Assembly: GCA_020627685.1 (NCBI GenBank) | Contig: JAHDGK010000007.1 | Span: 91,612 to 129,633, forward strand | DNA from: Granulosicoccus sp. | GTDB taxonomy: Bacteria; Pseudomonadota; Gammaproteobacteria; Granulosicoccales; Granulosicoccaceae | Length of the DNA stretch: 38,022 nucleotides | Reading direction: 5' to 3' | Shown: positions 5,473 to 24,524 of the stretch, in pieces | Position numbering within the stretch: position 1 is the stretch's first letter | Layout of the letters: each line of letters opens with the position of its first letter | Program-made: the position numbers and the translations under genes | The notes under the pieces: model-generated | Database searches by the model: none | What the model was told of the DNA's origin: nothing | What the model saw: only the letters and a program-made list of their open reading frames with translations

Positions 5473-6293
5473 TTATCGCTACCCCATTGCTGATTTTGTC
5501 TTAGGCGCTTCTCAAGGCGTCTTAATGCTAGCGACAAAAGTAGGGTGACCAACAAGTAGATGTACGCAACGATGTTGTAGGTCTCCATAAATCGGAACGA
5601 ACCTGCTGCGTAGATCTTTCCCAGTTGTGTGATATCGGCAACGCCCAGCACAGAGACTAAGGCTGAGTCTTTAATCATCGCGATAAAGTCGTTTCCAAGT
5701 GGAGGAAGAATGGTTCTGAACGCCTGCGGGAACGTGACATAGATGAATCTGTTTAAGGGCGATAGCCCGAGCGATTGAGCAGCCTCTCTCTGGCCAATAC
5801 TTACGGCTTGAATGCCGGCTCTGAATACCTCGGCGATAAACGCTGAGTAGCCCAAGGTGAGTGCAATGATGGCGCGCCAGATTAACGGGAAATCACGGGT
5901 TCGCATTGGGCTGTCTAACCAACTGCCAAAGACGTAGTTGATTGAGGCCACGATTGCCGGGGCTCCGACAAAGGCGATATAAAACAGCAATACGAGTATG
6001 GGTATACCGCGCATGACTTCAATATAGAAACGCGCGGCCTGGCGTAAAATGAGAAACGGAGACAGTACGGCAGCTGCTAGCAACAGCCCAAGAATGCATG
6101 CGAGGGAAAACGCCGTTATGGTGACAAACGCAGTAACGCCAATTCCTTTGTAGAGAATAGAAAATACTTCGGAGTACAAATCATCACTAATGATCTGATA
6201 CCCGAGCCAAGCGCCAATGCTCAATGTCAATACAAGCCACCACGGAAAATCCGTGGTGTCATGTGCATTTTGAGTAGAGCTATTACGTCCCAA
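5469..6293 (-). CDS. Amino-acid-type ABC transporter permease (HisM/GlnP family)
   Basis: 274 residues with about five to six membrane spans. The EAA loop of importer permeases is present near the C-terminus: GIQAVSIGQREAAQSLGLSP, with TFPQAFRTILPPLGNDFIAM just after it, a sequence style specific to the polar amino acid (HAAT) family. The N-terminal residues FYIEVMRGIPILVLL also match that family. The frame opens at TTG 6293 with AGAG nine bases upstream; no ATG is available before the first membrane span. It lies 38 bp downstream of the binding-protein gene in the same direction. No ATP-binding subunit is adjacent, so it must use one encoded elsewhere, perhaps the aapP-type protein at 36604 (inference). 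Confidence 0.88.
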   Translation of the reverse strand: MGRNSSTQNAHDTTDFPWWLVLTLSIGAWLGYQIISDDLYSEVFSILYKGIGVTAFVTITAFSLACILGLLLAAAVLSPFLILRQAARFYIEVMRGIPILVLLFYIAFVGAPAIVASINYVFGSWLDSPMRTRDFPLIWRAIIALTLGYSAFIAEVFRAGIQAVSIGQREAAQSLGLSPLNRFIYVTFPQAFRTILPPLGNDFIAMIKDSALVSVLGVADITQLGKIYAAGSFRFMETYNIVAYIYLLVTLLLSLALRRLEKRLRQNQQWGSDN

Positions 6294-6331
6294 AATATCG
6301 ATCTCTGTTAAGGCCGGGTAGGGCCCTTAGG

Positions 6332-7141
6332 TCATTGACCGATTTTATATTCCAGGAACCACTTGGTATTTAGCTTATCGATTGTACCGTCGGCTTTCAT
6401 GCTGGCTATCCCGCTATTAATCGCGTCAACCAGGTCCGAACCTTTGGGGAATATAAATCCGAAATCCTCGGTTCCCATCGCTTCGCCGACGAGTTTGAAT
6501 ACACCGGGGTTAGCATCGACATAACCGGCTCCGGCCGTTCCATCTGTGAGTACTAGATCGACATCGCCAGTACGTAAGGCCTGAATAGAGGCACCGAATG
6601 TTTCGAAGAGGCTGATACGAGGATTCTGCTCATTGCCGTCCAGAACTTCGTAAACTGCTGTGTAGAAAGGGGTAGTTCCTGCTTGCGCACCGATAAGTCC
6701 GTCTTCTATGGCCGCAAATTCCTCACCGCTTGAGAAACGCGTTTCATCAGCTCGAACTAGCATGAACATTTCTGAGCGCATATAGGCATCGGAAAAATCA
6801 ACTTTCTCACGACGATCGTCTCGAATGGTGATGCCTGTCATACCGATATCGTACTGACCTTCGCTAACGGCCGGAATCATCGCATCCCAACTGGAGTTTT
6901 CAATCACAGCTGTAAAGTTAAGACGGGTGGACAGCTCAGCCATTGCATCGTATTCCCAACCAATTGCCTCACCGGTTTTCGGGTTGACGAACTGTAAAGG
7001 CGGGTATGCGTTTTCCGTAACGACAACGACTTCCCGACCCTGAAGGTCTGGAAGGTCAGCTGCCAACACTTGGGGGCTGGCGATACACGTTGCCAGGGCA
7101 GCCGCTGCCAGTGAAATACCGCGTTGGATCGCTCCTTTCAT
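6332..7141 (-). CDS. Periplasmic solute-binding protein of an amino-acid-type ABC importer
   Basis: 269 residues of the SBP family 3 fold. A signal peptide is clear (MKGAIQRGISLAAAALATCIA, cleavage around VLA-AD). The mature part begins GREVVVVTENAYPPLQFVN, then GWEYDAMAEL, WDAMIPAVSEGQYDIGMTGI and RREKVDFSDAYM, all standard blocks of the glutamine/lysine-arginine-ornithine binding proteins. GAQAGTT and VDLVLTDG are hinge and second-lobe motifs. ATG 7141 has GAGGAA seven bases upstream. It heads the two-gene unit with the permease at 5469. The ligand cannot be read directly; the neighbouring Rieske oxygenase hints at a modified amino acid or betaine-like compound, which is inference. Confidence 0.88.
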   Translation of the reverse strand: MKGAIQRGISLAAAALATCIASPQVLAADLPDLQGREVVVVTENAYPPLQFVNPKTGEAIGWEYDAMAELSTRLNFTAVIENSSWDAMIPAVSEGQYDIGMTGITIRDDRREKVDFSDAYMRSEMFMLVRADETRFSSGEEFAAIEDGLIGAQAGTTPFYTAVYEVLDGNEQNPRISLFETFGASIQALRTGDVDLVLTDGTAGAGYVDANPGVFKLVGEAMGTEDFGFIFPKGSDLVDAINSGIASMKADGTIDKLNTKWFLEYKIGQ

Positions 7142-7153
7142 ATCGAATTCCTC

Positions 7154-7199
7154 ACGTGAATAGACTTAACCGATATTCATTGTGATCGCGCCACGTGAT
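7154..7199. repeat. Two CACGTGA elements upstream of the binding-protein gene
   Basis: The palindromic core CACGTG, each time followed by A, occurs twice about 38-40 bp apart just upstream of the binding-protein start at 7141. It could be a regulator site; no consensus is recognised. Confidence 0.25.
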
Positions 7200-7239
7200 G
7201 CATGCAAGTGACGGTTCGAGGAGGGCGGGCTTTGGGAAT

Positions 7240-7458
7240 TTAGATAAAGCCTAATTTGTCAGCGATGAGATAGGCAAGACTCAACACGATGAGCCCGATA
7301 CTCCAGGCTTTCATCCACATGATGTTGCCATGCCTACCAGCTATGAAAAGACAGACCCCAATGACCAGAGACAGGACCATTGATAGAGTGATCATGTCAT
7401 GCATGGATTCCCCGTAGGGGATATCCGGGTTGGGTGGTTCTCCATCGAGGTAACGCAT
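7240..7458 (-). CDS. Small two-span membrane protein, unknown function
   Basis: 72 residues. A polar N-terminus with GEPPNPDIPYGES is followed by two predicted membrane helices (ITLSMVLSLVIGVCLFIAG and AWSIGLIVLSLAYLIA) joined by a short loop with RHGNIMWMK. The ATG lies two bases after the stop of the Rieske oxygenase gene, so the two are very likely cotranscribed and coupled. I recognise no family. Because it follows a Rieske oxygenase with no reductase gene beside it, a membrane-anchoring or accessory role is possible, but nothing in the sequence (no Cys or His pair for a cofactor) proves it. Confidence 0.6.
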   Translation of the reverse strand: MRYLDGEPPNPDIPYGESMHDMITLSMVLSLVIGVCLFIAGRHGNIMWMKAWSIGLIVLSLAYLIADKLGFI

Positions 7459-7460
7459 AA

Positions 7461-8645
7461 CTAACTAGGCTCAGTGTTTGACCCTCTGAGCAAGCACTGT
7501 GCTACCCAGCGGTGGAAATGAACAGTGGGTTCATCCATGGCTGGAGCAAATTTTCCGCCCAGATACCCAGGCGAGTTTCGACCTTTTTGCATTCGCTCTA
7601 CCGCAAAAATGTCTTCACCGAAAACTTCGCTCCAATTGTCCAGCATGGTTTTATGGTGCTTAGTGTACTGGCTATCTAAGGCGTCGTCTCCAACATAACT
7701 GATACGCACATGTTCCACCGTCTCATCTTTACTGATGGGTTGCAGCATCATGATAAACAAATGATCGGAGTGCAAACCGATAAGCGTGTTCGGGTAGAGC
7801 GTCGGGTAGAGCGCTTTATTCATTTGATCTTCCGGCCATCCGGCCAGATTTGGAAGCTGTTTGTCATCAATGCTCAAACGCTGGTAGTTCAAACTGCCTT
7901 GTCCTGCCCCTTGGGCGAAGTAGTCTAAAGAGAAATGTTCCTGTAGCGGTGAAATACGGTTGAGCTCGGGATGAACTGAAGGCAAATGGTAGGACTCAAG
8001 GTAGTTTTCAACAGCAAGCTTCCAGTTGGATTTCACGGTTAACTGCGTACGTCCTGATTGATTGTCAGAGACAAACCGTTGGCGTTCATCTACAGAGCAC
8101 AGTTCATTAAATTGCCGTGTTAAAGGGGCTATATAAGATTGGAAGTCTTCAGCGGTACCTGACAAATTAACGAATACGCAGCCTAACCAGGTTTCAGTTC
8201 TTACTTCGCGCAGGGCGCCTTCCGCTTTGTTAAATTCCGGGTGTTCATGAACACCGAAACCGCCAATATGCGGAGTACCGCGTAGTTTTCCATCCAGCTG
8301 ATATGTCCAACTATGATACGGGCAACGCACCAGCCCGTTAGTTCTGCACGGAGCATCGGCCAGGTGCATACCTCGATGGCTGCACACATTGTGGAAAACT
8401 CGAATGACATCATCGTTGTCACGGGTAATCAGTAGTGGCAGACCCATAAAATCGACCGGGTAGACATAGTTAGGCTCCGGTAGATCGTCTACAAATCCAA
8501 TGCAGGCCCAGGAGGGTGCGATAACTTTTTCGCGGTCCTCGATAAAACCTTCATCGCTGGTATAACGCTCATTAGGCAAGCCCACAGCCGCGGCTATCGG
8601 CTTGTTGATATTGCGGTGTATTTCGATAACCGATTCTTTGAGCAT
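7461..8645 (-). CDS. Rieske [2Fe-2S] oxygenase alpha subunit (aromatic-ring/quaternary-amine type)
   Basis: 394 residues. The Rieske cluster motif is intact: Cys88-x-His90, 17 residues, then Cys108-x-x-His111 (CPYH). The mononuclear iron site follows in the form NWKLAVENYLESYHLPSVHP, giving His220 and His225 with bridging Glu217 in place of the more usual Asp. Length and motif spacing match the single-component alpha subunits that include glycine betaine demethylase (GbcA), stachydrine demethylase and carnitine oxygenase, and the Glu bridge is typical of that branch. The electron-supplying reductase is not in the window. ATG 8645 has GGGAG six bases upstream. It is followed by the small membrane gene at 7240. 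Substrate unproven; an N-methylated compound is the best guess. Confidence 0.85.
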   Translation of the reverse strand: MLKESVIEIHRNINKPIAAAVGLPNERYTSDEGFIEDREKVIAPSWACIGFVDDLPEPNYVYPVDFMGLPLLITRDNDDVIRVFHNVCSHRGMHLADAPCRTNGLVRCPYHSWTYQLDGKLRGTPHIGGFGVHEHPEFNKAEGALREVRTETWLGCVFVNLSGTAEDFQSYIAPLTRQFNELCSVDERQRFVSDNQSGRTQLTVKSNWKLAVENYLESYHLPSVHPELNRISPLQEHFSLDYFAQGAGQGSLNYQRLSIDDKQLPNLAGWPEDQMNKALYPTLYPNTLIGLHSDHLFIMMLQPISKDETVEHVRISYVGDDALDSQYTKHHKTMLDNWSEVFGEDIFAVERMQKGRNSPGYLGGKFAPAMDEPTVHFHRWVAQCLLRGSNTEPS

Positions 8646-8669
8646 GCGAGTCTCCCGTTGGAGGGTTGC

Positions 8670-9236
8670 CTAGGTTGGTAATTTCGGCCGATTGTAAAGC
8701 TCTTCAACCGACGGTACATCCTCAGATGAGACATTTGAGTCGCTGTTCCATAAGTCGGCAGCTCTTATTGCCCGTGCGTTTTGTACATAGGCACTTTCAA
8801 CCGTGATTAGCATCACGGTTACAGGACGGGAGCCGTCCAGAGTGAATCGATCCAAAAGCGTTGGATTGACTGAGATACAGGCAGTGCCCCTAATTCGCAG
8901 AGCTTCCTCGATACCCGGAATGAGAAAGACCAGGCCAACTCGTGGGTCTTTCAAAATATTTTTTAAGGTATCTATGCGGTTGTTACCGCGTCGGTCGGGT
9001 ATTGCGATGGTGTTGCTATCGATAACCTGAAAAGCTTCGCCGGGTTTATCTCCACGTGGAGAGCAGTCGATACTGCCGGAAGCCACGCTTGATAAAACGA
9101 AGAACGGCGAATGTGCCAGCCAATTTCTCATTGCGTCGGTGAGGCAATTCTGGACTTTCGAACTCGATGAGCGGCGAGGGGCCGGGTACTGGCTTTCCAG
9201 TTCCTCCAATGAGGTAATGAGATGGGGTGTGTTCAC
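8670..9236 (-). CDS. PPOX-class FMN-dependent flavoprotein (pyridoxamine phosphate oxidase-like)
   Basis: 188 residues with the split-barrel flavin-binding pattern: PFFVLSSVASGSIDCSPRGD, then TIAIPDRRGNNRIDTLKNILKDPRVGLVFLIPG, and LRIRGTACISV. This is the arrangement of the MSMEG_1061-type subgroup of the pyridoxamine 5'-phosphate oxidase family, whose members bind FMN or related flavins; enzymatic roles are mostly undefined. The start is GTG 9236 (MNTPHLITS), with no strong ribosome site. It lies 24 bp upstream of the Rieske oxygenase gene in the same direction, so the two are probably one transcript. An electron-transfer link to the oxygenase is possible but not shown by any motif. Confidence 0.82.
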   Translation of the reverse strand: MNTPHLITSLEELESQYPAPRRSSSSKVQNCLTDAMRNWLAHSPFFVLSSVASGSIDCSPRGDKPGEAFQVIDSNTIAIPDRRGNNRIDTLKNILKDPRVGLVFLIPGIEEALRIRGTACISVNPTLLDRFTLDGSRPVTVMLITVESAYVQNARAIRAADLWNSDSNVSSEDVPSVEELYNRPKLPT

Positions 9237-11323: not shown

Positions 11324-14300
11324 CTACTCCCGAAACATCTCTTTAAGAAAGGGGGCTGTTCTGGAGCGTTTAGAGCTAGCCACTTTCTTCGGTGTGCCTT
11401 TGGCAACTACCTTACCACCGCCAACGCCGCCTTCAGGTCCCATGTCAATAATCCAGTCAGCTTCTGCCATGATGTCCAGATTGTGCTCAATGACAATGAC
11501 CGAGTTTCCTGCATCGACGAGTCTATGCAGGACATGTATTAATCTTGCGACATCAGCCATATGCAAGCCGACCGTAGGCTCGTCCAGAATGTACAGCGTG
11601 TGCACGTTAACAATACTTTTTCCAGACGAGTCTTTTACCGACGGCTTGGCTTTAGCCAGTTCAGAGACCAGCTTAATGCGCTGAGCTTCTCCACCACTTA
11701 AGGTACGACTTTGTTGACCCAAGGTGAGATATCCAAGCCCTACATCTTGTAGTAGTTTCAATGCGTGATGAATGCTGTTGTGGCTTTCAAAAAACTCAAC
11801 ACCTTCATCTACATTCATCATTAGCACATCGCCTATAGACTTATCTTTGTATTGAACAGACAGAGTCTCATGGTTGAAGCGTTGTCCATTGCAAACCTCG
11901 CACAACACACGTACATCGGGAAGAAAGCTCATCTCAACGCGTTGCATTCCCTGTCCTCCGCATTCCTCACAGCGGCCTGAGCCTGTGTTGAAGGAGAATC
12001 GGCTGGCATCGTAACCGCGAATACGCGCTTCGGTTGTATCTGCATACAACCGTCTAATGTTGTCCCAGAAACCGATATAAGTTGCCGGGCAGGAGCGCGA
12101 TGTCTTACCAATGGGGGTTTGGTCAACTTCGAGTAGGCGGGAAATACTTTCCCATCCTGTTAAATTTTCACAGCCTATAAGTTCACCAAGTTTGCGTTGT
12201 CTTTTCTGTGCGTTTAGAACGCGCAAATTATCGTGAACGACATTGCGAATTAGCGTACTTTTCCCCGAACCCGAAACACCGGTTACGCAAACCAGTTGTT
12301 GCAGTGGAATATCGACGCTGACATTGTGCAGATTATGTAGCGAGGCTTTTTCCACATGGAGGACATGCTCAGGCTTTGTGCGTGTTGGATATAACGGATG
12401 CTTTAAAGGTTCATCAAGCAATTTGCCCGTCACAGAGCCGGGTGTTTTACGAACTGTGGCAACAGTGCCCGATGCGACGATCTCGCCGCCGCGCACTCCA
12501 GCACCTGGGCCTATGTCAATAATATGATCGGCACTTAATATGGTTTCTTCGTCGTGTTCAACGACAACAATGGTATTGCCTTTGTCTTTTAATTTAGACA
12601 GCGTGTTGAGTAGCATACGGTTATCACGTGGATGAAGACCGATGGTGGGTTCATCAAGGATGTAGCAAACACCCTGTAAATTGGAACCTAACTGCGCTGC
12701 CAATCTTATTCGTTGTGCTTCGCCGCCACTTAAGGTGGGGGCAGAGCGTTCTAACGATAAATATGACAAGCCAACTTCTTCTAAGAATGACAGCCGGGAA
12801 TTCAATTCTTTTAAACTGTCTCGGGCGATAGTGGCATCACGTTCAGACAGTGAGATATCGGAGAATACTTTTGCCGCCTCAGTAATGGTCAAGGTAGTGT
12901 AGTCGGCAATATTCCAATCCTGGAAATACACCGCTAATGACTCAGGCTTGAGGCGTTGTCCCTCACAACTGGCGCATTCAATAGGGTCTTCATCTTTCGT
13001 TCGCCAGTTGCGTTCTTCACCGGTTTGTTCTTCATCAAAGCCTGGGATAATTTCACCGGTTCCAAAACAATCGCCACACCAGCCGTGTCGCGAGTTGTAA
13101 GAAAACATGCGCGGATCTAGTTCTGGAAAACTGCGTTGGCAGCTGGGGCATGCTCGCTGAGTTGAGAATAATTGCTCGTTAGCAGTCGAACTGCCAATCT
13201 TGACGACACCGCTACCGAAATCAACGGCGCGCTGGATCAGCGCTTTAAGTTCTGCTTCTAGTTTTACATCCACTTTTATCGAGCCCAGCGGTAGGTCTAT
13301 GGTGTGTTCTTTGAATCGATCCAATCTTGGCCAGTTATCCGTAGGCGTGGATTCTCCATCGACACGTAATGTCTCGAAGCCTTTGTTAAGGGCCCATTTC
13401 GCTAAGTCTGTGTAATAGCCTTTTCTGTCCACGATGAGCGGGGCATACAAAGCAACAGATTTTCCGCGATGACGTTTGATAATCTGTGCGGTAATGGCAT
13501 CAACAGATTGCGCGGAAATTTCAACTTCGCAATCAGGACAATACTGAATGCCGAGTTTGACAAACAACAGTCGCAAGAAGTGATAGATCTCAGTCATCGT
13601 TGCAACAGTACTTTTTCGACCTCCGCGACTGGTTCTTTGTTCAATCGCCACAGTCGGGGGGATGCCGGTTATGGCATCGACATCCGGGCGTGAAGCCGGT
13701 TGCACAAACTGCCTTGCATATGCATTTAAAGATTCCAGATAGCGGCGTTGTCCTTCGTTAAAAACGATGTCGAACGCGAGCGTACTTTTACCACTACCGC
13801 TCATTCCGGTAATGACGCTTAGCTTGTTACGCGGGATATCTACATCGATGTTCTTGAGATTGTTTTCACGGGCTTTGTGTACTTCAATGGAATCGTGCTT
13901 CAGGCTGGTAGCGTGGCTGGTGTGTGTCACGTAGTTATTGTGTTTCTCGGCGATACTGTCCTTCTGCAGTTTGTCAGTAGCACTTTGATACTCCCTTAAT
14001 GAGGCGGCAGTAACACTGTGTTTGTGGGCCATCACTTGTTTGGGTGTGCCTTTGCAAATTACTTTACCGCCATCAGCGCCGCCTGCTGGGCCTAAGTCAA
14101 TAATCCAATCGGCATTGATGATGACATCAAGATTGTGTTCAATAACGACTAATGAATGCCCTTGCTCTATCAGCTTTTCGAACGCGCTGAGTAGCTTGTC
14201 GATGTCTTCAAAGTGCAAGCCGGTGGTGGGTTCGTCAAACAGAAACAGTGTGTTGCCAGCGATGGTGCGTTTAGAACGCGTCATGGCTGCTTGACCTAGG

Positions 14301-16852
14301 TAGGCTGCAAGTTTTAATCGCTGAGCTTCACCGCCACTGAGCGTGGGAACCGGTTGACCCAGTTGCAAATATCCAAGTCCGACATCTTTGAGAGGGGTAA
14401 GCGCGAGGATGACAGCCTTGTCGTCGACAAAAAACTCCAATGCATCGTCAACTGTCATGTCGAGCACATCGGCAATGGAGTAGCCTTCGCTCTGATGCGC
14501 ATTGAACAATTTAATTTCCAGAAGTTCTGAGCGATAGCGTCGTCCCTGGCATTCAGCGCAACGTAAATACACATCAGAGAGAAACTGCATTTCTACATGT
14601 TCAAAGCCATTACCGGAGCAAACCGGGCAGCGCATGCCTGAGTTAAAACTGAATGAACTGGCTTTGTATCCTCGCTCTTTAGATTCGGGTAGTTTTTCGA
14701 AAAGCTTTCGAATAGCTTCGAATGCACCTGTGTAACTTACCGGGTTCGACCGGGCTGATTTACCGATGGGCGATTGGTCTACCAGTATGACGTCCGTGAA
14801 ATGCTCGTGGCCTTGGATGTCTTTGTAAGGCTCTGCCAGCTCTTTGGGTTTTCCTTTCAACGCTGACAAGGCTTTAAACAGAGTGTCTTGAATCAGTGTT
14901 GATTTTCCTGAACCGCTAGGCCCGGTTAAACACACCAGACGGTTCAGCGGTATTTCGATACTGATGTTTTGCAGGTTGTGTCCGCTTGCCCCTTTGAGTA
15001 CTAACTTATCAGTGCCGCGAATTCCACGGCTTGTCGATGAAAAGCTCAACTGCTTTTCACCTTTTAAGTACTGCGCTGTCAGTGACTTTTTATGATTCAG
15101 TAGCGTGGTGGGTTTGCCATTAAAAACAATTTGCCCACCGGCAGCCCCCGGTCCTGGTCCAATATCAATGATGCGATCGGCTGCCATCATCAGTTGTGGG
15201 TCGTGTTCTACAACGATGAGCGTGTTACCGGCGTCACGCAGTCGTTGCAGTACTCTGATAACTCGATCCATGTCCTGTGCATGCAATCCAATACTGGGTT
15301 CATCTAGAACAAACAGCGTATTGACTAACGATGTCCCCAGCGCTGTGGTCAAATTAATTCGCTGTACTTCGCCACCGGACAAAGTTCTGGATTGCCTATC
15401 CAAGGTGAGGTAACCCAATCCGACGTCGTTCAGATAGAGCAGGCGTGAGCGCATTTCCCGGACAACCATTTCTGTTGGGTCATCCGTGTGTCCTTTGGCA
15501 ATTTCTTCGACGAACTGCATGGCCTTATCTAAGGGCAGCCTCATGATATCGACGATATTGAGTCCGGGCAGGGACTTCATTCGTGCTTTTGAAATGGAGC
15601 TGTGTGCAGGACGATGACGATGAGTCGGGTCCAAAACTAACGACGCATCTTCTAATGAACCGACTCGCCAGTTCAGAGATTCAGGTTTTAGCCTTGCACC
15701 AAAGCAAGAGGTGCATTCGTCATAACTACGATATTTAGCCAGCATGACTCTGACATGCATACGATACGACTTGCTTTCCAGCCAGTTGAAAAAACCGACC
15801 ACGCCGTACCAGTGATCCTTGCCGCTTGCGCCGTCACCGTAAACAACCCAATGCTGCTCCTTGTCGGTCATCTCCTCATAAGGAGTATCTAGAGGGATGC
15901 CTTGTTTCTTGGCGGCCCGAACCATCTCGCGTTGGCAGATAGCAGACTTCTCTGTTTGGAATACCTTAACAGCGCCACCACTGAGCGTTTTAGTGGTGTC
16001 AGGAATAGCGAGACGGTAGTCGATACCGATGACCCGTCCAAAGCCTTTGCAAGTTTCACAAGCCCCTATGGGGGAGTTAAAAGAAAAGCTTGCAGGTGTA
16101 GCCTCGCGATATTTAATACCGCAGCCTTCACATTGCAAGGTGGTGGAGTAGGTGGATTCTGTCAACGATTCCCGATTGTCATCGAGTGTATGAACGCTTA
16201 CCTTGCCTTGGCCATACCGTAAGGCCGCTTCTACCGCCTCAACAAAGCGTCCGCGATTATCCGGATTGGTTTTGAGACGATCCTGTATGACATCTATGTG
16301 CTTTTTGGTTTGCTTTTGAACGCGGGTATAACCTTGTCTGGCCAGCCAGTCCTGAATTTCAGCGGCGTCAAAATTATCGGGAATAGGTACCCGAAAGGTG
16401 ACCATGATTCTCTGTTCTGCTTGTTCATCAAACCAGTGATTGCTGATGTTTTCAGCGGTGTCCTGTTTTACGGCTTGTCCGCATTTTTCGCAGAAGAGTT
16501 TTGCCGTGCGGGCAAAGAGAAGTTTTATATGATCGTTGAGTTCGGTCATGGTGCCCACCGTCGATCTGGACGTTCTAACCGGATTGGTTTGGTCGATCGC
16601 GATAGCTGGGGGAATGCCCTCAATCCGATCAACCCGGGGTTTATCCATGCGATCAAGAAACTGTCGCGCATACGGGGAGAACGTTTCTACATAGCGGCGT
16701 TGCCCTTCCGCATAGATCGTGTCAAAGGCCAGAGTAGATTTGCCACTACCGCTTACACCGGTAATGACGATCAGTTCACCTTGCGGCAATGACAAATCGA
16801 GATTCTTGAGGTTGTTCTGGTGGGCATTCTCGATCAGTATGTGCTTACTCAT
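11324..16852 (-). CDS. Tandem double-length UvrA paralogue with four ABC ATPase modules
   Basis: 1842 residues, about twice a normal UvrA (about 940). Four Walker A motifs are seen (G-x-SGSGKST at about residues 32, 642, 1016 and 1526), four signatures (LSGGEVQRI, LSGGEAQRL, LSGGEAQRI twice) and four Walker B/D-loops (LDEPSIGLH, FDEPTTGLH, LDEPTIGLH, LDEPTVGLH). Each half also carries paired Cys-x-x-Cys zinc modules (for example CEGCG with CETCKGFG, CPVCSGNG with CAECQGRR, CPSCQ with CGDCFGTG, CEECGGQG with CEVCNGQR). A linker of about 50 residues, polar and rich in His and Lys, joins the two UvrA units near residue 960-1005. Such fused paralogues occur in several proteobacteria and are usually annotated as of unknown function; the ordinary UvrA is expected elsewhere. 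DNA damage recognition is inferred from the fold. Confidence 0.92.
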   Translation of the reverse strand: MSKHILIENAHQNNLKNLDLSLPQGELIVITGVSGSGKSTLAFDTIYAEGQRRYVETFSPYARQFLDRMDKPRVDRIEGIPPAIAIDQTNPVRTSRSTVGTMTELNDHIKLLFARTAKLFCEKCGQAVKQDTAENISNHWFDEQAEQRIMVTFRVPIPDNFDAAEIQDWLARQGYTRVQKQTKKHIDVIQDRLKTNPDNRGRFVEAVEAALRYGQGKVSVHTLDDNRESLTESTYSTTLQCEGCGIKYREATPASFSFNSPIGACETCKGFGRVIGIDYRLAIPDTTKTLSGGAVKVFQTEKSAICQREMVRAAKKQGIPLDTPYEEMTDKEQHWVVYGDGASGKDHWYGVVGFFNWLESKSYRMHVRVMLAKYRSYDECTSCFGARLKPESLNWRVGSLEDASLVLDPTHRHRPAHSSISKARMKSLPGLNIVDIMRLPLDKAMQFVEEIAKGHTDDPTEMVVREMRSRLLYLNDVGLGYLTLDRQSRTLSGGEVQRINLTTALGTSLVNTLFVLDEPSIGLHAQDMDRVIRVLQRLRDAGNTLIVVEHDPQLMMAADRIIDIGPGPGAAGGQIVFNGKPTTLLNHKKSLTAQYLKGEKQLSFSSTSRGIRGTDKLVLKGASGHNLQNISIEIPLNRLVCLTGPSGSGKSTLIQDTLFKALSALKGKPKELAEPYKDIQGHEHFTDVILVDQSPIGKSARSNPVSYTGAFEAIRKLFEKLPESKERGYKASSFSFNSGMRCPVCSGNGFEHVEMQFLSDVYLRCAECQGRRYRSELLEIKLFNAHQSEGYSIADVLDMTVDDALEFFVDDKAVILALTPLKDVGLGYLQLGQPVPTLSGGEAQRLKLAAYLGQAAMTRSKRTIAGNTLFLFDEPTTGLHFEDIDKLLSAFEKLIEQGHSLVVIEHNLDVIINADWIIDLGPAGGADGGKVICKGTPKQVMAHKHSVTAASLREYQSATDKLQKDSIAEKHNNYVTHTSHATSLKHDSIEVHKARENNLKNIDVDIPRNKLSVITGMSGSGKSTLAFDIVFNEGQRRYLESLNAYARQFVQPASRPDVDAITGIPPTVAIEQRTSRGGRKSTVATMTEIYHFLRLLFVKLGIQYCPDCEVEISAQSVDAITAQIIKRHRGKSVALYAPLIVDRKGYYTDLAKWALNKGFETLRVDGESTPTDNWPRLDRFKEHTIDLPLGSIKVDVKLEAELKALIQRAVDFGSGVVKIGSSTANEQLFSTQRACPSCQRSFPELDPRMFSYNSRHGWCGDCFGTGEIIPGFDEEQTGEERNWRTKDEDPIECASCEGQRLKPESLAVYFQDWNIADYTTLTITEAAKVFSDISLSERDATIARDSLKELNSRLSFLEEVGLSYLSLERSAPTLSGGEAQRIRLAAQLGSNLQGVCYILDEPTIGLHPRDNRMLLNTLSKLKDKGNTIVVVEHDEETILSADHIIDIGPGAGVRGGEIVASGTVATVRKTPGSVTGKLLDEPLKHPLYPTRTKPEHVLHVEKASLHNLHNVSVDIPLQQLVCVTGVSGSGKSTLIRNVVHDNLRVLNAQKRQRKLGELIGCENLTGWESISRLLEVDQTPIGKTSRSCPATYIGFWDNIRRLYADTTEARIRGYDASRFSFNTGSGRCEECGGQGMQRVEMSFLPDVRVLCEVCNGQRFNHETLSVQYKDKSIGDVLMMNVDEGVEFFESHNSIHHALKLLQDVGLGYLTLGQQSRTLSGGEAQRIKLVSELAKAKPSVKDSSGKSIVNVHTLYILDEPTVGLHMADVARLIHVLHRLVDAGNSVIVIEHNLDIMAEADWIIDMGPEGGVGGGKVVAKGTPKKVASSKRSRTAPFLKEMFRE

Positions 16853-22121: not shown

Positions 22122-24524
22122 CTATGCTCTGGCTCGGCTTCTTGTCGGGTCAACAAAAGGGATGCTGCAGCGTACCGCGTCCAAGCGTTTGCCGTGTCCA
22201 TCAAGTTTCCCAATTTCTAATTTTTCGTCGCTGTCGGCATACTCGACGGCAATTCTTGCCATCGCAATTGCGCAACCGAGTGCGGGGGAATTTGTTGCGC
22301 TGGTAATAACACCTATCTGCCGCCTTCCCGCGAACACACCATCTCCATGCACGGGTGCTTCTTGACTGGAAAATTTTAAACCGGTTAAAACCCGTCTGGG
22401 TTGTTCCAAGTTTCTTGCGAGTGCCGGTTTTCCGATAAAGTCTGCCTTGTTCAAATCAACCGCGAAACCCAATCCGGCTTCAAACGCATCAACATCATTG
22501 GTGAATTCTGCATTGGCTGCCATCAAGCCTGCTTCAATGCGAATGGTTTCCAAGGCTTCTAAACCCATCGGTGTAATACCCAGATCTTTTCCTTCATTGA
22601 TGAGGGCATCCCAAATCGGTATGGCAGAGTTGGTGCTACAGAAAATTTCATATCCCAGTTCTCCAGTGTAGCCAGTACGTGTGAGATGGAAGGGGTGGCC
22701 TTCACGGTCATATAGACGGGCGATGGTGGAGCCGAACCAGCGTAGTTGTTCCGAATCGGTCTGATTTGGCTGCGTAAAGGCAACTCGATTGATTAACTCG
22801 CGACTTTTCGGTCCTTGTATGGCCAGATTCGGCATGGCTGCGAACAAGGATTTAATCCAAACGTTCAGACCTGCGTCTTTAGCAATTTTCTTCAGATGCA
22901 AACCACTGTCATCCGAGCCACAGCACCATCGAAACGTTTCGTTGCTCAATCGAAATAAGGTGCCATCGTCGATAACGCAGCCGGTTTTGTCACACATAAG
23001 CGCATAGACACCACGGTTAATGCTTAACTTATTCATGTCTCGCGTTAAGGCTAGTTGCAGCAGTTTTTCAGCATCGGGTCCCAGTACATCAAACTTACGA
23101 AGTGATGACATGTCCTGTATAACGACGGCATCGCGGCAAGCATTGTATTCCTCGGCTGCCCGAGTACTTTCAAAGGAGCTCGGTAACCAGACGTCCCGTG
23201 CAATTGCAAAATTGCGAGTTAAGGCACTTGTTCGTTCATGAAACGCGGAATGTTCAGTCAAGATAGCCTCCGATTCGGGCTCGGGTCGATAGGCGACAGC
23301 ATGTTGAATAGGTGTGTCTTTTTTATAAATTCGGACATGAATGTCGGTTGGATGCCATCCGTTGATCGGGTCTACATCATCCGGACAAGCTGTTGTTACG
23401 GCGACCAGATCATTCATAGCTTCCATGGCAATGTAGTCGCCGGGGCGAGACCAGGCTTCGTCACTACGAAGTCGATTGTCGTGATGATCTATCCAGGAGT
23501 TGAAGAAAAAATTAATGGCAGGCCATGCCTGCTTAGGTGAGATACCAAAGGGTGCGTACGCGTGACTGATGTTATCCGTACAGTTTAGGTGGCCAAAAAA
23601 TCCGCGTTCTTCATACCCTCTGGCTGTGCAAGCGTAAGCGAAGGTGTCATGCCGTCCGACCGTATCAATTTTAAGTTTTAACAGAGGTCGTAAATCCTGA
23701 TCGAAGAATTTATCGAACAGACCTGGGATAGGGTAAGCGCCACTAGTCATTGACCGTGTAACGGTCGAGTCTATATACCGTTCCTTACCTGCCGCCAGTG
23801 AACGAGCGTTCATTGCCATAAAGTCAGAGCATTGCTGGCCCTGAACATCAATGATTTGAACGGTTTCACCGGCATTAAGTTCATAGGCTTTGGCGGTTCC
23901 CGCCGGAACCGTAAATTCTTCTCTTACCGCGCCGAAGGGATCCGGTAGTGGATTAGCAGCAGCGCCATCACGTACATGATCCAGCGTAATCGATCCGCCC
24001 ATGCCTCCTTCGTAGAGACGCTTAGCTGAGTAAACATGCGATGGGTGTATGAGAAACCAAGCAGTGATGTCATGTTCAACTCGTAGAGAGAAGTGTTCAC
24101 CAGCAACAGTTTCATCATCAAAGATACAAACAGCGGCAACGTTGGCGTGCTCATCAGACACGCCGCCTCCTTGTTGCCGATACCACTGTTTGATAACGCT
24201 AAATCCTTGCGCATTCAAATCGCAAGATGTCTGCGTGTTTTCAGCAAGCCCTATGGCATCGAACTGTGAGTTTCCACGCTCGTTGAACGTGAGTATTAGG
24301 AGCGGGGTAGCACCATCAACGTTTTCAATGTTGAGAAGGTCGCTAGCTTTGAGTTCCAGCTTCACAGGCGTTGCAGGCCGCAGAAGTCGAGGCCGTTTGT
24401 TCGTTTGAAAGCCAAAGTAATGCCGACCGGAAAGCCCACGTCCCAAATTTTCGGGGCTGTACAGCCATCCTATTTCAGCGCTACTTACCCGCTGTTGGTC
24501 ATGCGTTACTTTATCTGAGCTCAT
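22122..24524 (-). CDS. Fusion of DUF1989 (urea carboxylase-associated type) and GcvT-like aminomethyltransferase
   Basis: 800 residues in three parts. Residues 1 to about 185 are an uncharacterised N-terminal part (LYSPENLGRGLSGRHYFGF). About 190-400 is the DUF1989 domain, with FTVPAGTAKAYELNAGETVQIIDVQGQQCSDFMAMNA and HLNCTDN, the family known from proteins next to urea carboxylases. From about 430 to the end is a GcvT/DmdA/sarcosine-dehydrogenase-type tetrahydrofolate domain: GCVIDDGTLFRLSNETFRW, then RTGYTGELGYEIFC and GLEALETIRIEAGLMAANAEF. The GcvT part normally takes a one-carbon unit from an aminomethyl or N-methyl donor to tetrahydrofolate. The reaction of the fusion is unknown. ATG 24524 is preceded by AAGAGTG within an inverted repeat. 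Zwf lies upstream in the same direction. Confidence 0.87.
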   Translation of the reverse strand: MSSDKVTHDQQRVSSAEIGWLYSPENLGRGLSGRHYFGFQTNKRPRLLRPATPVKLELKASDLLNIENVDGATPLLILTFNERGNSQFDAIGLAENTQTSCDLNAQGFSVIKQWYRQQGGGVSDEHANVAAVCIFDDETVAGEHFSLRVEHDITAWFLIHPSHVYSAKRLYEGGMGGSITLDHVRDGAAANPLPDPFGAVREEFTVPAGTAKAYELNAGETVQIIDVQGQQCSDFMAMNARSLAAGKERYIDSTVTRSMTSGAYPIPGLFDKFFDQDLRPLLKLKIDTVGRHDTFAYACTARGYEERGFFGHLNCTDNISHAYAPFGISPKQAWPAINFFFNSWIDHHDNRLRSDEAWSRPGDYIAMEAMNDLVAVTTACPDDVDPINGWHPTDIHVRIYKKDTPIQHAVAYRPEPESEAILTEHSAFHERTSALTRNFAIARDVWLPSSFESTRAAEEYNACRDAVVIQDMSSLRKFDVLGPDAEKLLQLALTRDMNKLSINRGVYALMCDKTGCVIDDGTLFRLSNETFRWCCGSDDSGLHLKKIAKDAGLNVWIKSLFAAMPNLAIQGPKSRELINRVAFTQPNQTDSEQLRWFGSTIARLYDREGHPFHLTRTGYTGELGYEIFCSTNSAIPIWDALINEGKDLGITPMGLEALETIRIEAGLMAANAEFTNDVDAFEAGLGFAVDLNKADFIGKPALARNLEQPRRVLTGLKFSSQEAPVHGDGVFAGRRQIGVITSATNSPALGCAIAMARIAVEYADSDEKLEIGKLDGHGKRLDAVRCSIPFVDPTRSRARA

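Follow-up and report, generated by a model that had tools for sequence, protein, structure and literature searches.

A Granulosicoccus member of the TMAO demethylase family falls in a sister clade with a probably different substrate

The closest described system is the TMAO demethylase, Tdm, which is represented by the curated family NCBIfam NF053776, by the solved structures PDB 9q59, 9q5l and 9q5a, and by the enzyme of M. silvestris BL2. Tdm converts TMAO to dimethylamine, as stated in the available excerpts of PMC8918994, and releases formaldehyde, as stated in those of PMC12560246. The latter excerpts assign C263, C279 and C343 to Zn and H276 and D346 to Fe, with D198 in addition, and describe, from an AlphaFold model of the M. 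silvestris enzyme, a degenerate N-terminal DUF1989-like domain without metal ligands. According to the same excerpts, two folate contacts have been lost, with Phe in place of Tyr101 and Leu in place of Arg223, and tetrahydrofolate is dispensable, slightly lowering the release of formaldehyde. We infer that 9q59 is the M. silvestris enzyme; an offset of 22 places all eight of the published residues, F487 and L618 included, correctly onto this chain.

The gene analysed here lies in a window, i.e. the whole stretch of 38,022 nucleotides of Granulosicoccus sp. DNA, and its features are collected in Table 1. On the minus strand it forms a single unbroken open reading frame with an ATG start, while the plus-strand reading contains many stops. 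Pfam recognised a DUF1989 domain, followed by GCV_T and GCV_T_C, the last two above their cut-offs, and gave no match to residues 1–204 at E 0.001. Judged by these E-values, the three-part domain reading is far beyond chance; together with the open reading frame they bear out the description in an earlier note, namely an N-terminal region, a DUF1989 domain and a GcvT-like domain in one protein. The novelty that the note saw in this fusion does not stand, since the full-length domain order is the known layout of Tdm (NF053776, 9q59). A new domain fusion was considered as a candidate and ruled out by the solved Tdm structures and the curated NCBI family with the same layout; architecture and family are already known (NCBIfam, PDB, PMC12560246). 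The activity proposed in the note, in which a protein with a folate-type domain strips a one-carbon unit off a small methylated compound of nitrogen type, is that of the Tdm family, as far as the available excerpts of PMC8918994 and PMC12560246 describe it.

Table 1. Features of the Tdm-family gene, with positions in the window
Feature	Position	Strand	Evidence
Whole gene, encoding 800 aa (Tdm family, clade A)	22122..24524	(-)	ORF, NF053776, PDB 9q59, trees
Degenerate N-terminal DUF1989-like domain (predicted), residues 36–196	23937..24419	(-)	AlphaFold2, structure matches, hhalign
DUF1989 domain, residues 205–374; by analogy the metal-dependent demethylation site	23403..23912	(-)	PF09347 E 2e-40; 3oru Z 20.7
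GcvT folate-type domain, residues 429–688	22461..23240	(-)	PF01571 E 1e-55; T-protein 1yx2 Z 34.1
GcvT C-terminal barrel, residues 711–792	22149..22394	(-)	PF08669 E 2e-14
Metal-residue span: D234, C299, H312, C315, C380, D383	23376..23825	(-)	Alignment with 9q59
Residues 303–309, the stretch that differs in clade A, flanked by metal ligands C299 and H312	23598..23618	(-)	Alignment

Residues 44–800 matched NF053776 at E 8e-304, the score of 1010 bits falling short of the curated 1100 bits, and residues 191–799 matched 9q59 at E 1e-188 in a sequence search; 9q59 was absent among the fold-search matches listed, though the sequence search had found it. In a tree of the DUF1989-GcvT part, 67 clade A proteins (from the best 80 of 89 matches) were separated from 35 clade B proteins across a branch with 100% support. 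The solved Tdm 9q59 fell within clade B, grouping with L170/L171 at 99%, and the window protein within clade A; both trees were made by a quick method with midpoint rooting, and L037 is a long branch. Scores with NF053776 were 1010 (window protein), 1016, 1034, 1062 and 1094 bits for five clade A proteins, i.e. 0.5–8.2% under the Tdm cut-off, and 1190–1283 bits for five clade B proteins. Because its score lies under the cut-off, we file the window protein in a sister clade rather than as a TMAO demethylase equivalog. As the relatives of the window protein were limited to the best 80 of 89 matches, sampling of clade A favours proteins like it. For the alignment and trees, the 67 proteins were those of L046–L112 minus L109, plus the window protein, L009 (641 aa, split) being left out; for the neighbourhood, the 67 loci were L046–L112 minus L109, plus L009. 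L109, a 434-aa fragment, is in neither set, and its genome (G089) is counted as clade-A-only; L015 duplicates L002 and was removed, and L017–L035, several of which are, judged by length and identity, the same contigs as L046–L062, are outside the counts.

Among 57 relatives, clade A occurred in 20 genomes, clade B in 24 and both in 14. When 398 genomes were drawn evenly from the phylum and the two best candidates per genome scored, 27 genomes had a match; by score, clade A was present in two of them (the window genome and G155) and clade B in 26, the window genome being in both counts, so that clade A is the rarer. Judging by the locus titles, many clade A loci come from genera that we take to be marine. 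In the available parts of the literature on tdm, TMAO demethylase and DUF1989 outside subscription journals and preprints, we found no paper splitting the two clades; a separate clade with its own neighbourhood is apparently new. Three genes on rhizobial plasmids (L010, L011 and L013) are annotated merely as 'DUF1989 domain-containing protein'. L010 and L011 exceed the Tdm cut-off, at 1269 and 1283 bits, L010 having a Tmm gene above its own cut-off nearby, and all three are likely to be under-annotated TMAO demethylases.

Other known systems cover the protein in part. The GcvT part shares its fold with 1yx2 (T-protein, Z 34.1), 3tfh (DmdA, Z 30.1) and 5x1i (Z 24.8), and the matches to GcvT/T-protein, DmdA, LigM and dimethylglycine oxidase leave the DUF1989 half uncovered. 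The GcvT, DmdA and LigM models scored under their cut-offs (NF001567, 225 against 300 bits; TIGR00528, 173 against 236; NF009133, 164 against 410; NF047885, 44 against 580). Stand-alone DUF1989 proteins (3oru, 3siy and 3di4; the urea amidolyase-associated UAAP1/2) share the fold of residues 199–403 (3oru, Z 20.7), resemble residues 36–196 more distantly (Z 10.1) and are without the GcvT half. The UAAP1/2 models also fell under their cut-offs (TIGR03424, 83 against 285 bits; TIGR03425, 55 against 206), and with these scores the suggested link to urea carboxylase falls away.

The N-terminal part, called unassigned in the earlier note, has relatives. Modelled alone (AlphaFold2, 54-row alignment), residues 36–196 gave a pLDDT of 89.9, and a structure search with this model returned DUF1989 proteins as the top three PDB entries: 3oru (Z 10.1, 138 residues at 3.3 A), 3siy (Z 10.0, 136 residues at 3.1 A) and 3di4 (Z 8.5, 148 residues at 5.2 A), the next row reaching only Z 6.3. 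In Foldseek, 3di4 came first (E 4e-5), an unrelated chain followed as early as E 4e-3, and the DUF1989 rows were modest (TM-scores 0.48–0.55). With hhalign, the clade A N-terminus matched that of clade B at 98.6%, and the clade B N-terminus matched its own DUF1989 domain at 86% over 135 columns; the clade A N-terminus compared directly gave weak results (probability 10% with its own DUF1989 domain, 22% with the clade B one), so the link from the clade A N-terminus to DUF1989 runs via the clade B N-terminus and the predicted structure. In clade A, no column of this part reaches more than 37% conservation of Cys or His. The N-terminal part thus models as a second, degenerate DUF1989 domain, a feature in common with Tdm, down to the lack of metal ligands; a domain without known relatives, the other candidate, was ruled out by hhalign, Foldseek and the structure matches.

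In the second DUF1989 domain, the six published metal residues of Tdm are all present: D234, C299, H312, C315, C380 and D383 of the window protein align with D198, C263, H276, C279, C343 and D346. Five of them are invariant across the 67 clade A proteins (from the best 80 of 89 matches) and the 35 clade B proteins, and D383 is kept in 66/67 and 35/35, respectively. The two altered folate contacts are likewise the same as in Tdm, Phe (F524) and Leu (L655), position 655 being variable in clade A, where the commonest residues among 67 proteins are Gly (26), Leu (19) and Ser (13). By analogy, a mechanism like that of Tdm is very likely, with a methyl group removed as formaldehyde in a metal-dependent reaction beside a GcvT-type domain. 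The Zn/Fe site would rearrange a methylated oxide-type substrate, yielding formaldehyde and the demethylated product. The C-terminal GcvT domain would receive or hold the formaldehyde and possibly hand it on to tetrahydrofolate, and the degenerate first DUF1989 domain would be structural. Since Tdm works without tetrahydrofolate, the folate step is uncertain both in Tdm and in the window protein.

Our favoured reading, held with moderate confidence, is that the window protein is a Tdm-family member of sister clade A, a metal-dependent demethylase whose substrate is TMAO-like, though probably a different compound. TMAO itself may be a substrate of clade A, since all known catalytic residues, the Zn/Fe residues included, are common to both clades and the clade A scores lie near the Tdm cut-off. 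Clade A would in that case be a second TMAO demethylase, an isozyme with another importer and regulator that supplies energy or one-carbon units while dimethylamine is excreted. This is the chief rival reading, which we regard as possible and lean against.

The sequences of the two clades differ between the metal ligands, which speaks against such an isozyme. Each clade is at least 90% uniform, yet with a different residue, at 26 positions, nine of which lie within residues 198–402. In the stretch between metal ligands C299 and H312, clade A (again from the best 80 of 89 matches) has G303 (66/67), R307 (67/67) and F309, where clade B has Tyr (35/35), Leu, Ala, Met or Ile (Arg in 0/35) and Tyr. 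Six of the nine near-fixed differences are G303 and F309 together with S320 (Asn in clade B), A333 (Gly), S343 (62/67; Thr) and I387 (Ala). Aligned by eye, 9q59 has the clade B residue at 303, 309, 320, 333, 343 and 387, and Ile at 307. The change from Tyr to Gly at 303 and the invariant Arg307 perhaps point to a larger substrate, possibly a carboxylated, methylated onium compound.

The window genome (4.93 Mb, 117 contigs) contains a second copy of the gene on contig C11, 44% identical to the first and scoring 1202 bits with NF053776, above the cut-off of 1100. This copy shares its cluster with an ABC importer, the binding protein of which matches TmoX (4xz6; E 9e-156), and with a DmmA-family gene, an ammonium transporter gene and a gln_synth_III gene, which we take to encode gamma-glutamylmethylamide synthetase; by its gene content, the C11 cluster is of the TMAO type. 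Tmm, Dmm, GMAS and TmoXWV genes were absent among the window genes scanned. Across 64 of 91 genomes (G007, G011 and G013, three of the 30 clade A or B genomes among the relatives, being outside the 64), clade A only was found in 24, clade B only in 9, both clades in 28 and neither in 3, and the presence of both clades together in 28/64 counts against an isozyme.

The same genomes differ in the accompanying methylamine genes. Tmm and DmmA were each found in 0/24 clade-A-only genomes, a further point against the isozyme, and gln_synth_III in 9/24. The clade B genomes had Tmm in 32/37, DmmA in 16/37 and gln_synth_III in 34/37, and the three genomes with neither clade had no Tmm or DmmA and two gln_synth_III. 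Fisher P values for Tmm, DmmA and gln_synth_III co-occurrence were 2e-12, 7e-5 and 8e-6, respectively, calculated with kinship ignored and from genomes that are not independent. A query gene that we presume to be DmmD-like gave, at E 1e-60, matches in 0/24 clade-A-only genomes compared with 20/37 clade B genomes, five of the 20 at just 41–45% identity. These counts come from a set in which several genomes are incomplete and completeness is unknown for 34/64, and the clade-A-only sample from the window's own family amounts to four genomes. DmmA is missing from 21/37 clade B genomes as well, and its absence is not decisive, because SAR11 strain HTCC1062 grows with TMAO without DmmDABC, as the available excerpts of PMC8918994 report; this leaves room for an isozyme.

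In the window, the gene has an EamA gene on one side and a gene for glucose-6-phosphate dehydrogenase on the other. Ten window genes, the Rieske gene and the importers among them, were sought in 67 related loci with flanks of up to 10 kb (one of 12 kb), and none recurs there. The pathway that the earlier note had drawn from the Rieske gene and two importers finds no support in these loci, a comparison that reaches close linkage only, the Rieske gene lying 13.5 kb away; the importers in the window are of the polar amino-acid type. The Rieske gene itself (7461–8645, minus strand) encodes an oxygenase alpha subunit, its best NCBIfam match being glycine betaine monooxygenase GbcA at just 115/670 bits. 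Another gene of the window (11324–16852, minus strand) is an open reading frame of 1842 residues with three UvrA-matching stretches (NF001503, 2058 bits). Against PRK00635, a model of 1809 positions with a cut-off of 3054 bits, it scored 1173 bits, and from its sequence it looks like a double-length UvrA.

Elsewhere in clade A the gene has a setting of its own, whereas Tdm lies in a TMA/TMAO cluster. In most cases a LacI-type regulator gene stands directly upstream in divergent orientation, and directly downstream, again mostly, follows a betaine-type ABC importer of three genes in one of two orders. Counting tblastn matches (E 1e-30) within 6 kb at loci with enough flank, and drawing clade A from the best 80 of 89 matches, we found the LacI-type regulator in 35/46 and the full importer in 29/39 loci outside the window's subclade. 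Within that subclade (19 loci) the counts were 3/16 and 1/12, and in clade B 0/27 and 0/22. The importer ATPase query also matched 8/22 clade B loci, as expected for a large family, and the binding protein query 0/22. Since the window's subclade is mostly without this neighbourhood, the transporter argument reaches the window gene via kinship only. One clade A locus, L068 from Marinomonas pollencensis, has a reverse-transcriptase-like and a TnsA-like open reading frame (5689–9024) upstream of the gene, and no LacI-type regulator was found there.

The linked binding proteins are distant from TmoX. The one at locus L091 (Marinobacterium profundum) matched 4xz6 at E 2e-9, behind 3tmg, and for the one at L072 (Roseovarius nubinhibens, whose strain ISM carries both clades), 4xz6 was not listed at E 0.001. 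In TmoX, Glu131 bonds the oxygen of TMAO and W55, W102, W177 and W222 form the cage, according to the available excerpts of PMC8918994. We compared 38 binding proteins, 36 from clade A loci and two from the window genome away from its clade A gene. Much of the quaternary-amine aromatic cage is retained (W55 in 38, W102 in 38, W177 in 37, with Trp or Tyr at W222), which fits an isozyme; Glu131 is replaced in 38/38, which does not, and it is present in 8/8 TmoX-type proteins (that of the C11 copy and of seven other clade B loci). A free-standing betaine-type importer of the window genome (locus L179; contig C109, 6091–9885, minus strand) has a binding protein that shares 49% identity with the one linked to the clade A gene at L091 and lies about 5 kb from a trans-3-hydroxy-L-proline dehydratase gene. 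Because the importer and regulator are other than those of Tdm and the sampled clade-A-only genomes are without Tmm and DmmA, clade A probably acts on a compound other than TMAO.

What that substrate might be can be put more narrowly, and with far less confidence. Clade A would demethylate a zwitterionic, carboxylated, methylated onium oxide, taken up by its own betaine-type ABC importer under LacI-type control and with no link to trimethylamine, a specific proposal that we consider unlikely as it stands. That the substrate is carboxylated is a guess, hinted at by an Arg that lies near the metal ligands in the sequence and by the betaine-type importer. A carboxylated amine N-oxide would be one possible candidate and dimethylsulfoxonium propionate, the sulfur analogue, another; the available parts of the literature on dimethylsulfoxonium propionate and homarine gave no link to clade A among the matches listed. 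A folate-dependent methyltransferase of betaine-like compounds, comparable to DmdA and with a merely structural or regulatory DUF1989 metal site, would suit the betaine-type importer adjoining the gene in many relatives and the likeness of the GcvT domain to DmdA (164 bits with the model; 3tfh, Z 30.1), but is very improbable given metal residues that are conserved rather than decayed, a DmdA score far under the cut-off of 410 bits, and F524 and L655 at contacts that the available excerpts of PMC12560246 describe as lost in Tdm, even though position 655 varies.

Returning to the favoured reading, a Tdm-family demethylase with a probably different substrate, the separation of clade A bears on how tdm genes are read. 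Tdm genes serve as markers of methylamine turnover, and if clade A acts on something else, two processes are being mixed. Should the narrower onium-oxide proposal be true, clade A would represent an unrecognised demethylation route for marine osmolytes. An enzyme encoded beside its own regulator and importer also offers a direct handle on its substrate.
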